A DNA stretch of 64,000 bases from Reticulascus tulasneorum (taxonomy: Eukaryota > Ascomycota > Sordariomycetes > Glomerellales > Reticulascaceae). The position numbers and the translations under genes are program-made. This document shows, in pieces, positions 45,131 to 50,970 of this stretch. How positions within the stretch are numbered: position 1 is the first letter of the stretch; the number at the start of each line of letters is the position of its first letter. Where the stretch lies: contig LSAX01000007.1 in assembly GCA_001557505.1 (NCBI GenBank), positions 3,286,001-3,350,000 on the forward strand, given 5' to 3'. The notes beneath the pieces were generated by a model. The model searched no databases, had not been told where the DNA came from, and was given only the letters and a program-made list of their open reading frames with translations.

Positions 45131-46805
45131 TCAGGTTACATATATATCTATCTGGTATATCTCATTCCGGCGAAGATTGGGCTGGACGACTCTTCTCACA
45201 GCACGTGTTAAACGCACCTCATCCCCAGTCGTCGAGTCTTTGGACAATGCCAAAGAAGATTGGATCGGAATGCCAAAATATCCCGAATTTCTAAGCACCC
45301 AGGGTACAGAATCTGGCTCCTCGTGGTTTATAGACGATCGAAACTGAGCCAACAATACCGGATCGCAAGCAGAAAGATCGGCAACAGTGCACACCATCTC
45401 GCCACGCTCGGTGTTCCAGCCAAAACATGCAAGAAGACAAGACACATCAACGGATGTCCCACGGATTTGAATTTTCCCTTTGATCATAACTGCGCCCCAT
45501 CCATCGTTTTTACCGTCTCTTCCGTATTCTGTATTGAAGAATAGACCGTCCTCGCTGTCGAAGTGGCTCAGAGGTCGGGCCTGGTAGGTTCGCAGGCCGG
45601 GCGGTAGGCAGATTCGTACCGCAGATGTGCGGTTTTTCATAACAAGGTTTTTTTCCCACTCTAATTGTTGCCAGCGCGAAAATTCGGAGACATCTGTAAC
45701 TCTGCAAAGGAAATACAGATACTTGGAACGATAACCAAGATGCTCTTTTGTGAGAGTCGCAAGGGAAGATGGCTGATCGCGCACGAACAAGTCTGACCCG
45801 CATTTCCTCAGATATATCGCAAGGCCGGTGCGAGCCTCATCGTCGATCGCACAATCAACGTCAAGAAGATAATGCCAACCCTGTGAATTCTGTCGTGGGG
45901 ACGCCTTCAGCCCTGTCTTCATGCGGATGCCTCGATTCGTTACCGAAAAATCAGACTGCAAATGAGACGCATCGGTCTTGACAAAACGAGTGCAGCCAAC
46001 AAAGACCGCAGGAGAGTCGGCTAAAAGCCCTGAATATCGAGGTGTGTTTTCAATGTCTTGTTGCAACGCTGCTTTCCAAGCAAAAATGCTGAGGTCACAA
46101 GTGCTCTTGATTATCTCTTCCTGGAGACGCGTAAAGGCTTTCCAGCCTTCGCCGTAGAGTAGAGGCATGTTCACATCGAATATTCCGAGCAAACAGTACC
46201 CCATATCCTCCACCCTCGTGGTCCCTCTGCCAGATGCCCAGGACATCTTCGTTGCGACTGGAAGCGAAGATAGCGGTGTTGTGTTACGCAGAACCCCTGG
46301 GCCAATACCGGTGATTAGAGTAATGTCGCTGATGAGGTCGGCCTTAGTACCCCGATAATCCCATGTCTGGTCAAAGAAGAGAACCTCCCGTGGTGCAACC
46401 AGCTCCTGCAGCGTCCACCCTCGGGTGAACCACCGGCACTGCTTTAGTTCTGTTGAGAGGCTGGGGCCGGGGGGCAGGTCCGATAAATAGACGTAACAGA
46501 TGATTGCGGATTTGTACCACTGGAACATGGAGTTGATAGCCTCAGATAGCTCTGCACTACTGGATTTATCAATGCAGCAGGTGTCTACCCAAACGTAAGA
46601 CATGCCATCTGAGGCCGCCAGGTCACAAGCGGCCTTAACTTTGTGATAGCCTTTCTTCCCGCCTGCTGTTCCGTCTTTCATGTCCTGGAACAGCCTGGAA
46701 CAGGACTTCTCCATCTTCCCAAGTATGAGACAAAATATTATAAGGAGGTATGTTTGACCCAACAAACTCTTCGATGGCGAAGGTCGCTGTGTTCAGAAGC
46801 CGCAT
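45131..46805 (-). pseudogene. HET-domain protein gene with a frame-breaking 10-bp tandem duplication
   Basis: The body of the gene is a long open frame, 45131 to about 46690, encoding a HET-domain protein of the HET-E/NWD2 group. It has YVWVDTCCIDKSSSAELSEAINSMF, in short VWVDTCCIDK, then YLSDLPPG, CRWFTRGWTLQELVAP, and WASGRGTTRVEDMGYCLLGIF. The true N-terminus is in another frame: ATG 46805, MRLLNTATFAIEEF, then YNILSHTWEDGEVLFQ. The two parts are separated by a perfect 10-bp tandem duplication (46684-46693 and 46694-46703). Without one copy the frame would run straight from VLFQ into DMKDG, as in intact relatives. As given, translation from ATG 46805 terminates early; an internal ATG (46765) could still give 544 residues lacking the first HET strands. 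HET proteins trigger cell death after fusion of unlike hyphae. Confidence 0.85.
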
Positions 46806-48021: not shown

Positions 48022-50970
48022 ATGGCTACATCAGGCAGTGTCTTCTCCGAGACTCTCCAGGAGATCACCACTACCAAGCTAGAAGAGTTATCGAAGCGCC
48101 GCTCGACTTTTGAAAGTGCCAAGGCGGCCACGTTGCTGTCTACGCAGCAAGAGAATGATGCCGTGAAACGCCTCACCACTCTCTCTGATGGTGTCAAGAG
48201 ATGCTTCGCCATCAAGGCCGACAAGTTGGGCAGGGTGACCAGGAATCAAACCAAACACCCAGCCCTCGAGGTTGAGCTCAAGAACCTCGATCGCTTCCTG
48301 GCCCAGGCTCGTAACGATCCATCCGTTTCGTTGGATATGCTTAAAGCTTGGGAGCAGCCCTTGCGCCGCCATCTCGATATGCAGAGTCTCAAATTTGAGT
48401 ACGCGTCGCTCTATGCTCAACTGGTGACCGAGTGGCTGCCACGACAGAACAGCGATGACTTGGCCGAAGGAGACGACGTCGAGATGGCTGAAGATTTCGA
48501 GGACGTGGGTAATGCGATGAAACTGGAATCGAGGATGGAATGGGAAAAGATGGTGTTCGAGCCCGCCCAAGTGGACGAGGAGGCTCTCAAGAAGTACCTC
48601 GGCGGTCTTTTTGGTATTGCTACCAAGAGTCCAGGCAAGGAAAAGGTGTTCGCCGCTTTGAAGGATCTTCGAGAAGATGTGGAGACATTCGAAGCGGAAT
48701 TGTCGCGGCCTGGCCAATTCTCTATCCGGACCCTGACTTCGACAATCAGCGGACTCTTATCGTCAGATCTGCTCTCTGACGAAAAACGAGAGGTTTTGAG
48801 AGACTTCATTGGCAACTCCATGATTCTCACGGAGGTTGCGGATGTCCTCAACATGCGCATTGCTGCGTTAGACTCGTGGTCTTGGGGCTCTGGGGTCCCT
48901 GTGGAGCAGCGCCGCAAGATCAGCGGCATATACAACATTCACATGCAGGAGGACCTTCTCCAGTCGATTTTCCTGCAGTACATTGGCGTTAAATGGTCTG
49001 TATTCTTCAAGAATGCTTTCAAGAATTTCCGCAAGTTCAACGGGGCTTGGAAATCCATTCGCGCCGATATACCGAAGGTCGACATGAAGAGGCTGGACTA
49101 CTACTTAGGCCCTATCGAACGAAGTCCTTCTATTCAAGCTGCAAGACGGAGCTTATATAGGAAGGAATACTTTATGTGCCAGCTTCTGGACCACGAAGAT
49201 CAAGAGATTGCCAGGGTGGACGGTGAGGATGAAGCCGAGTACGAGAATTTTGCGGTGGAAGAGTCCAAAAAGCGCAAAACGGGCCGAACCAAACAGACTG
49301 CAAGAAATTCCACTGGTGGTAAGGCCCCAAGGAAGCAGCTTGCGAGCAAAGCGGCTCGAAAATCGGCCCCTGCTGGCGCTATGAGACACAGGAAAATTCT
49401 TCGTCACGATGATGGCTCAGAGTCTGAGGATGACGACGATGATGATGACGATGATGAAGATAAATCTAGCTCTCCTATGCAACTTAAGCAGAAACTGCTC
49501 CATCTGCTCTCGACCGAGATTTCGATAAACACAAAGCTTCATGGAGAGTTTACAGCCTTTCATTCAGTCTTCGAGGAATGGAACCCCTTGCTGCCGCACG
49601 ACACTGTCCACACTGTGATGAAGCTCTTTGGGGTCTCTGAGACTTGGCTTACATTTTTCACGCGGTTCCTCAAAGCTCCCCTCAAACTCATGGATGACGG
49701 AGGTTCTCCTGCGAGAACCCGCGAACGCGGTACGCCGGCGTCGCATGCCCTCAGCGACGTCTTTGGCGAGACGGTGCTTTTCTGCCTCGACTTTGCAGTC
49801 AACCAAGCCACCGGCGGTAAGCCACTCTGGCGCATTCATGATGACATCTGGTTTTGGTCGTCGGACCACGGCGTCGCCGTCCAGGCGTGGAAGGCTGTGA
49901 ACCAGTTTGTCGATGCTACCGGCACGTCTATCAATGAGGCCAAGAGCGGCACGGTCCGCATCTCCAGCAATCCGAATGTTGCCCTTGACATCGATGAGCT
50001 TCTGCCCGAAGGACAAATCCGATGGGGTTTCCTGTATCTCTCGCCTACCACCGGCCGGTTCGAGATCGATCAGGACATGGTGGATTTTCATATTACCGAA
50101 CTGCGCAAGCAGTTGAAAGACAAGCGAAAGAGCGTATTTGCGTTCATACAGGCCTGGAACACATATGCGGCCACATTCTTTACGTCCAACTTCGGCAAGC
50201 CGGCGAACTGTTTTGGCCGAGACCACGTGGACAAGATGCTCTTCACTCATGAACGCATCCAGCGACAGATCTTCTCCGCGTCTTCCACCGCCACCGACGA
50301 GACAGGCGCATCCAGCGTCGTTGACCACCTCAAAAAGCTCCTCCAACAGCGCTTTGGCATCACCAATGTCCCTGATGGCTATCTCTTCTTCCCCGTCGAG
50401 CTCGGCGGCCTCGATCTGCAATCACCGTTTATCACCCTCCTCCAGATTCGGGATTCCGTCCTCGAATCCACCTCAGAGCCTCTTGCAGATCTCGAGAAGT
50501 CTGAGCGCGACGGATACAATGACGCCAAGACCGCGTTCCTCAACGGCAGTACCGCCACGCACCGGTACTCCCTTGACGACCCGGAGTGGAAGCCGGATTC
50601 AAAACACGATCGCGAGAACTTCATGAGCTTTGAAGAATATGTGCGCTATCGGGAGGAGTTTAACTTCGGCCACACAACACAAGTGTTTAATGTGTTTGAG
50701 AATTTCATGCAACGTCCAGCGGAGGAGAGCATCGAGCCGGATACCAATAAGATCTGGCCGGCGCTGGCCGGACTCGGCAGTCAGAGTGCTAACCTGCGAG
50801 GCATTACAAACAGTTGGTACGGAATGCAGCCATATTGGCAGTGGGTCGCGATGATGTATGGTCCGGAGATCGTTGACCGGTTCGGAGGCCTTAACATTGT
50901 TGACCCAGGACAGTTGCCGATGGGTATGGTCAGCTTGTTCAGGGAAAAGAGAGTAACTTGGCAAGGCTGA
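48022..50970 (+). CDS. rvt: rvt-type domesticated reverse transcriptase with histone H3 tail-like insert
   Basis: A single uninterrupted frame of 982 residues. The N-terminal half is helical ([33 protein letters not shown]) and ends near [19 protein letters not shown]. The C-terminal half has reverse-transcriptase-like segments: [16 protein letters not shown], then [10 protein letters not shown] with the catalytic-type Asp pair at 607-608, then [11 protein letters not shown] and [13 protein letters not shown]. This matches the single-copy, intact rvt genes of fungi and other eukaryotes, which are cellular genes and not transposons. Between the halves lies a disordered linker. Residues 421-450 of it reproduce histone H3 residues 1-30 except at positions 1 (Gly) and 9 (Asn), followed by a run of Asp and Glu (about 461-480). 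The cellular function of rvt is not established. No repeats or endonuclease domain flank it. Confidence 0.85.
49282..49371 (+). other. Histone H3 N-terminal tail-like segment within the rvt-type CDS
   Basis: Thirty codons aligned to H3 residues 1-30. The visible stretches are RTKQTAR, then Asn in place of Lys9, then [21 protein letters not shown]. Lysines equivalent to K4, K14, K18, K23 and K27 are kept. After Pro30 the sequence leaves H3. A basic KKRK segment (416-419 region) lies just before it and a poly-acidic tract just after. Confidence 0.93.

Follow-up and report, generated by a model that had tools for sequence, protein, structure and literature searches.

Histone H3- and H4-like tails in the insertion loop of a fungal reverse-transcriptase-like protein

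What is a histone tail doing inside a reverse-transcriptase-like protein? The question is raised by an rvt-type gene at 48022..50970 on the + strand of the window, a 64,000-nucleotide stretch of Reticulascus tulasneorum DNA, in which a single uninterrupted ORF codes for 982 residues. The rvt protein is a domesticated reverse-transcriptase-like protein present in many filamentous fungi. In the available text of PMC5718144, a large insertion loop, loop 2a, is a feature of rvt genes, which have relatives in bacteria, and the accessible part of PMC10680173 states non-templated polymerisation for rvt. The modelled protein of the window has the predicted RT fold of rvt cellular genes, and its catalytic Asp pair, D607-D608 (HDD, RT motif C; 49840..49845, + strand), is at least 90% invariant across 55 aligned rvt proteins. 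Residues 419–480 are predicted to be disordered (pLDDT <50) and precede the stretch that holds motifs A to C, with motifs assigned by eye. On this disorder prediction and motif assignment, the insertion (approximately residues 402–484; 49225..49473, + strand) is taken as loop 2a, as defined in the available text of PMC5718144.

Pfam recognizes no family in the rvt protein (the best of 4 sub-threshold rows is Trans_reg_C, E 0.17), and no histone fold is found in it, with no PF00125 row in a Pfam search at E up to 10. RVT_1 is matched by 4 relatives among those tried, at E 0.004 to 0.11, under the cut-off. All four rvt proteins compared with the PADLOC model RT_UG37 (DRT) match it, at E 2.6e-56, 1.2e-52, 3.3e-57 and 6.6e-54. 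No bacterial relatives of rvt are among the 76 pattern matches from one scan of genome contigs. Upstream of rvt, at a distance of ~1.3 kb, is a HET-domain gene (45131-46765, - strand; Pfam E 9e-10). Elsewhere in this genome, RVT_1 (PF00078) has 18 matches, 15 of them with at least 5 stop codons, mostly TAG and TAA, a pattern of the kind that repeat-induced point mutation would produce.

The loop imitates two histone tails in succession, far above chance. First, residues 421–450 (49282..49371, + strand) match residues 1–30 of H3 at 28 of 30 positions; relative to the H3 encoded by the same genome (contig C12), the only differences are A1G and K9N, and S22 of that H3 is also present in the rvt segment. 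A PDB search with the 77 residues around the segment returns histone H3 chains (best E 2.2e-11), and the H3 score of the loop is 137, against 51 for the best of 20,000 loop shuffles. Second, residues 452–461 (49375..49404, + strand) are identical to H4 14–23 at 9 of 10 positions, with K16M; when the H3 part is masked, only 1 of 20,000 loop shuffles equals the H4 score. Among H3 lysines 4 to 27, six in number, K9 alone is lost in this copy; H4K16 is lost as well. An NLS-like basic patch, KKRK (49267..49278, + strand), stands just ahead of the H3-like segment, and an acidic run (DDGSESE, nine D, ED; 49408..49461, + strand) closes the loop. The initial annotation had described the H3 match with its two exceptions, Gly at position 1 and Asn at position 9, the retention of K4, K14, K18, K23 and K27, a likeness too exact for chance, and the acidic run that follows; each of these holds, none of the 20,000 shuffles reaching the H3 score. 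The H4-like stretch, which it had missed, is an addition.

It had also read the segment as possibly captured H3 sequence, copied from an mRNA. The imitation itself stands, beyond chance and also in relatives; a recent capture does not. In this genome's H3 gene, codon T6 is split by an intron, and the mimic runs across that site uninterrupted, which fits an mRNA origin. A codon comparison with the H3 gene, suggested as a way of dating the capture, reveals no resemblance above codon-usage expectation: 9 of 28 codons are shared, versus 10.2 expected from codon usage in the rest of rvt (simulated P = 0.77), and nucleotide identity is 64/90. The H4-like part shares 4/9 and 2/9 codons with the two H4 genes. 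At synonymous sites, therefore, no trace of the H3 gene is visible, and the match has been kept at the protein level. With 64/90 nucleotides and 9/28 codons shared, we reject a mis-assembly that drew in the H3 gene, and likewise a recent capture, against which carriers in several ascomycete classes also speak. These data do not separate an ancient capture from a stepwise origin. Four in-frame GT-AG pairs are present across the loop at 49223-49469, and a CTRAY branch motif is found in none of them. The loop is absent from the gene models of relatives P0024, P0031, P0059, P0079 and P0080, which could reflect gene-model introns or real alternative splicing.

Spread of histone-like loops

Relatives were gathered in three ways. 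A homologue search with the rvt protein found 583 sequences, the best 120 of which, with the window's own, make up the 121 nearest; a profile search, whose query profile included H3-like loops, contributed the best 120 of 965; and a search with the segment alone contributed the best 120 of 270. Of these last 120 listed matches, 83 are multi-histone gene models with a complete H3; among the others are rvt, VIT-vWA, SET-domain and FG/CTD proteins. The resulting rvt sample contains 226 proteins, including the window's own, and a loop is called H3- or H4-like when it scores above the 99.9% shuffle level (cuts of 44 and 42, respectively).

The segment is found in rvt relatives of several ascomycete classes. 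Among the 121 nearest proteins, which were not selected by the segment, 70 loops are H3-like, 42 are H4-like, 85 are either and 36 are neither. A further 88 proteins, from the profile search with H3-like loops in the profile, include 55 H3-like and 6 H4-like loops (56 either). A last 17 were segment-selected; the 12 of sufficient length to enter the tree are all H3-like. Judged by genus name, the carriers presumably belong to Sordariomycetes, Leotiomycetes, Dothideomycetes, one Eurotiomycete and lichen fungi; H3 scores reach 91 in the Eurotiomycete Aspergillus hancockii P0299 and, among the lichen fungi, 73 in Hypocenomyce P0287 and 122 in Pyrenula P0314 (cut 44). An unrelated basic linker in relatives, offered earlier as a refutation of capture, is thus true for part of the family and not for the rest.

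Controls of several kinds bear on chance. When the first 138 loops are compared with the best of 2,760 shuffles, 80 score higher for H3 and 45 for H4, versus 0 for H2A, 0 for H2B, 6 for reversed H3 and 5 for reversed H4; at the laxer 99.9% level, the control counts for these loops are 4, 0, 9 and 6. The H4 score exceeds the best of 3,840 shuffles in 41 of 192 non-redundant rvt loops. In counts of 5- and 6-letter words from the loops, words made almost entirely of D or E being excluded, H3 words rank top and H4 words second. Chance, or a simple basic linker, is ruled out by the shuffles, the reversed tails and the H2A and H2B controls.

The rvt loops evolve faster than the core, with a mean loop identity of 0.51 at a core identity of ~0.80 and 0.32 at a core identity of 0.5. 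On a tree of 221 cores, H3-likeness requires 40 parsimony changes (shuffled labels: mean 67, minimum 55) and H4-likeness 27 (mean 44, minimum 37); the root is ambiguous for H3 and lacks H4. Since both counts fall below those of shuffled labels, the loop state is partly inherited, with frequent gains and losses. This genome contains three rvt genes. The second (G000:C15:643129-646098) is 56% identical to the window's; its loop contains GNAKRHRRF and also QMQLMLLEQQNKKR, which occurs as a motif in a Q-rich protein encoded on contig C4. The third (G000:C25:1785535-1788141) is 37–45% identical and has a short loop with no histone-tail or other look-alike match. This gene and the 36 of the 121 nearest proteins with neither likeness indicate that the mimic is dispensable for rvt as such. 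The Q-rich protein has no Pfam family, and its motif region has no relative in the PDB better than E 5.5. Motifs like QMQLMLLEQQNKKR recur at G000:C17:1618295 and G000:C35:252742, the former locus also having an ORF with GEPGVGKT, a P-loop-like motif. In public databases, the name histone or histone H3 is attached to four rvt proteins, P0206, P0222, P0257 and P0281, probably on account of the mimic.

Internal H3 tails also occur in unrelated proteins. One family (P0183–P0186, P0188, P0196 and P0198), here termed FG/CTD, combines 20–27 FG dipeptides with an H3 tail and Pol II CTD-like repeats, and an H4-tail-like stretch is present in 6 of the 7; P0185 matches Rpb1 at E 2e-26 and H3 at 3e-12. 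The T22/A31-type H3 tail of these seven proteins, considered as a possible rvt clade, belongs to this unrelated family. Four fungal VIT-vWA proteins (P0201, P0221, P0223 and P0229) have internal H3 tails as well, and P0229 begins MARTKQTAR; the ends of P0201 and P0221 resemble the ribosomal P-stalk (Pfam Ribosomal_60s at E 2e-5 and 0.004, neither reaching the curated cut-off). Near-exact H3 tails are found in P0217, P0220 and P0199, which are two SET-domain proteins and one vWA-U-box protein. K9 is lost in 7/7 FG/CTD and 2/4 VIT-vWA proteins, K4 in 1/7 and 4/4, respectively, and all six lysines are retained in the two SET-domain proteins.

Lysine replacement in the loops

Leaving out near-duplicates and the 5 loops that fell short of 60 aa reduced the 226 loops to 192, and residues were tallied in those above shuffle level (116–117 H3-like and 37 H4-like). 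These loops keep arginines and most other tail residues, whereas lysines have repeatedly become Arg, Met or Gln. The histone residue is present at 446/486 arginine positions (92%), 1808/2217 other positions (82%) and 392/752 lysine positions (52%); identity-only scoring gives 97%, 89% and 62%. Retention is 57/101 at K9, 44/114 at K18 and 13/37 at H4K16, and lysine is still the commonest residue at H3 sites 4, 9, 14, 18, 23 and 27. Some non-lysine sites are poorly retained too (H3 T3 60%, L20 68%; H4 L10 53%). R17 and R19 of H4 are unchanged in 48/48 loops, with no parsimony changes. The K9-specific idea of the initial annotation proves too narrow, as every H3 and H4 lysine site is often lost in the rvt family. 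True H3 sequences keep 498/498 lysines, a weak control in that they were selected for at least 28/30 matches.

The 360 lysine replacements comprise R 128, M 87, Q 46, A 15, I 12, V 12 and T 11, with N 9, P 9, S 8, L 7, E 5 and others fewer; in the core, 35 lysine columns of similar variability give replacement shares of R 26%, T 12%, Q 11%, N 9%, E 7% and M 1.8%. Met thus accounts for 24.2% of lysine replacements in the loop versus 1.8% in the core (Fisher P ~1e-51, uncorrected for relatedness, as are all Fisher tests on the loops), and for 55 of 449 replacements at non-lysine loop sites. By parsimony, Met was gained or lost ~28 times at H3K18 and ~10 times at H4K16. K9 and K27 become mainly R (51 vs 18 Q or M) and K14, K23 and H4K16 mainly Q or M (65 vs 10 R; parsimony changes P = 3e-7), a grouping chosen post hoc from which H4K8, H4K12 and K4 deviate and in which K18 is mixed. 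It is as if K14, K23 and H4K16 were frozen acetyl-like and K9 and K27 frozen unmethylated, the grouping again being post hoc; a context rule, by which a lysine after an arginine is more apt to become Arg, would account for part of this split. Judged indirectly, from the lack of codon memory and the site-specific conservation, the histone-like stretch is of long standing and evidently maintained by selection.

Proposed role and alternatives

These patterns suggest that the loop may be a selected, modification-resistant imitation of the H3 and H4 tails that docks rvt on tail readers or nucleosomes, or serves as a pseudosubstrate, a proposal we consider evenly poised between right and wrong. The loop would bind proteins or surfaces that recognize H3 and H4 tails. 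Candidate partners are bromodomain- or PHD-type readers, SET enzymes or acetyltransferases for which the loop would be a pseudosubstrate, and the H2A/H2B acidic patch, via R17-H18-R19 of the H4 part. R17 and R19 of H4 are in contact with the acidic patch of the nucleosome, and histones with K-to-M changes act as traps for SET enzymes. The loop would tend toward being unwritable by the acetyl- and methyltransferases of the cell, so that rvt would stay on chromatin or chromatin enzymes regardless of marks, and the adjacent acidic run may mask it. KacXXR, in which the arginine is required, is a motif of the BAZ2B bromodomain, according to the text available of PMC6972770. KAPR of H3 and KRHR of H4 correspond to it and are well retained in the family except for the K: A15 89%, P16 85% and R17 94% in H3, and R17 100%, H18 95% and R19 100% in H4, with Q or M at K14 in 25/107 and at H4K16 in 19/37. 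The motif is not singled out, because R2, Q5, A7 and A21 are likewise kept (90 to 93%). The lysine losses in the unrelated FG/CTD and VIT-vWA proteins favour the proposal. Against it speak the window's own copy, which has lost just K9 of the six H3 lysines plus H4K16, the rvt proteins that lack the mimic, the poorly retained non-lysine sites, the Met replacements at non-lysine loop sites and the two SET-domain proteins with all six lysines.

Alternatively, the loops may form a decoy array, in which look-alikes of tails conserved in the core gene-expression machinery bait the foreign effectors, toxins or selfish-element proteins that attack such tails, and binding activates a defence-related RT. 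We regard this as unlikely, though with several observations in its favour. The loop outpaces the core (mean 51% loop identity at ~80% core identity), and other look-alikes appear: above the 99.9% shuffle level, 13 of 192 loops match the N-terminus of Sub2 (MSAEEDLIDYSDEEL in this genome's own gene), 9 the P-stalk end and 10 the motif of the Q-rich protein, compared with 0, 1 and 3 when the motifs are reversed. That last motif stands together with GNAKRHRRF in the C15 rvt gene, 2 of the 4 VIT-vWA proteins have an H3 tail with a P-stalk-like end, and the FG/CTD family joins H3, Pol II CTD repeats, FG dipeptides and an H4-like stretch (6/7). The RT_UG37 (DRT) match at E = 2.6e-56 points the same way, but RT_UG37 is a sequence model, and a defence function of rvt is putative. 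The Sub2 and P-stalk motifs, moreover, were picked after the loops were inspected, and the best of 250 random 19-mers and 250 random 15-mers from the same genome, which are acidic, reach 12 and 21 loops, so that these likenesses are suggestive only. For Pol II CTD and GLFG, look-alikes in rvt loops exceed the reversed controls hardly or not at all (CTD 5 vs 4 reversed; GLFG 2), and the H4-like stretch encoded by the C15 gene, with a score of 36, falls short of the cut (42). Bait meant for enzymes that modify lysines ought to retain them, and we know of no attacker of such tails. The fuller version of this idea, that rvt is an immune-type RT that displays swappable bait tails copied from the most conserved machines of the cell (H3 and H4; in further species or paralogues Sub2, P-stalk, perhaps Pol II CTD), tending to be lysine-unwritable, and that it responds when they are bound, the VIT-vWA and FG/CTD proteins being independently alike, appears to us distinctly unlikely on the sequences at hand.

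The loop could also be a writable mimic, one that histone acetyl- and methyltransferases treat as an ordinary substrate and that is regulated by its marks. The window's copy still has five of the six H3 lysines and K is commonest at each of the six H3 sites, but lysines, as a class, are the residues lost most often, and we hold this to be improbable. Nor is it probable, by a somewhat wider measure of doubt, that the loop only carries rvt into the nucleus, as H3 and H4 tails do in acting as import signals. The KKRK patch ahead of the segment and a K/R run of three somewhere in 116/192 loops are what such a signal might contain; it should, however, conserve both K and R while tolerating uncharged change, whereas R is 92% kept versus 52% for K and 82% for positions that are neither, and Met for Lys loses charge. 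A functionless, decaying retro-captured H3/H4 cDNA of ancient date is very improbable: the mimic does run over the H3 intron site and many loops are lost or fragmented, but 28/30 residues are retained despite no synonymous-site memory, replacement is recurrent and lysine-biased, and H4 R17 and R19 are invariant in 48/48 H4-like loops.

If the docking proposal is correct and the loop does bind, it would provide a natural modification-resistant probe for histone-tail readers and writers, a handle on the cellular role of rvt, and a direct test of a domesticated RT at chromatin versus in defence. The rvt family amounts to many parallel evolutionary experiments, giving a site-by-site view of what stays without lysine marks, and the lysine losses suggest a natural counterfeit histone tail that would be hard for chromatin enzymes to rewrite.

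Comparison with known systems

The protein shares with rvt cellular genes the RT fold, the HDD motif and the large insertion loop (loop 2a, per the available text of PMC5718144). In the literature searched, which left most subscription journals outside its scope, no report of histone-like sequence in rvt was found, and an rvt histone-tail mimic is to that extent undescribed. With the defence-associated RTs (DRT/UG), rvt shares a sequence relation (RT_UG37, 4/4); a defence role of fungal rvt is putative.

As a beyond-chance histone-like stretch in a non-histone protein, the loop is, at the sequence level, a case of histone mimicry. Viral examples, as given in the accessible text of PMC6972770, include ARSK of influenza NS1 and KacXXR of the hepatitis delta antigen; common to these and rvt are a short histone-like motif in a non-histone protein and the KAPR and KRHR cores. 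The viral mimics in that text are ~4 residues long and lysine-dependent, whereas rvt, a cellular protein of fungi, imitates 30 residues of H3 and 10 of H4, and among its relatives the lysines tend to be lost. Cellular H3K9-like mimics, among them the EHMT2 substrates WIZ and CDYL (PMC10611923, in the portion available), are likewise the cell's own proteins with ARKS-like sites; theirs are short and lie around a methylated lysine, in contrast to rvt, which is without K9. Histone mimicry is mostly described as short motifs, often viral, whereas rvt presents a near full-length H3 tail and an H4 stretch. Lysine-to-methionine oncohistones are histone tails with K-to-M changes and known traps of SET methyltransferases. 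Those are mutated histones, whereas rvt is a separate protein, with Met mostly at H3K18 and H4K16.
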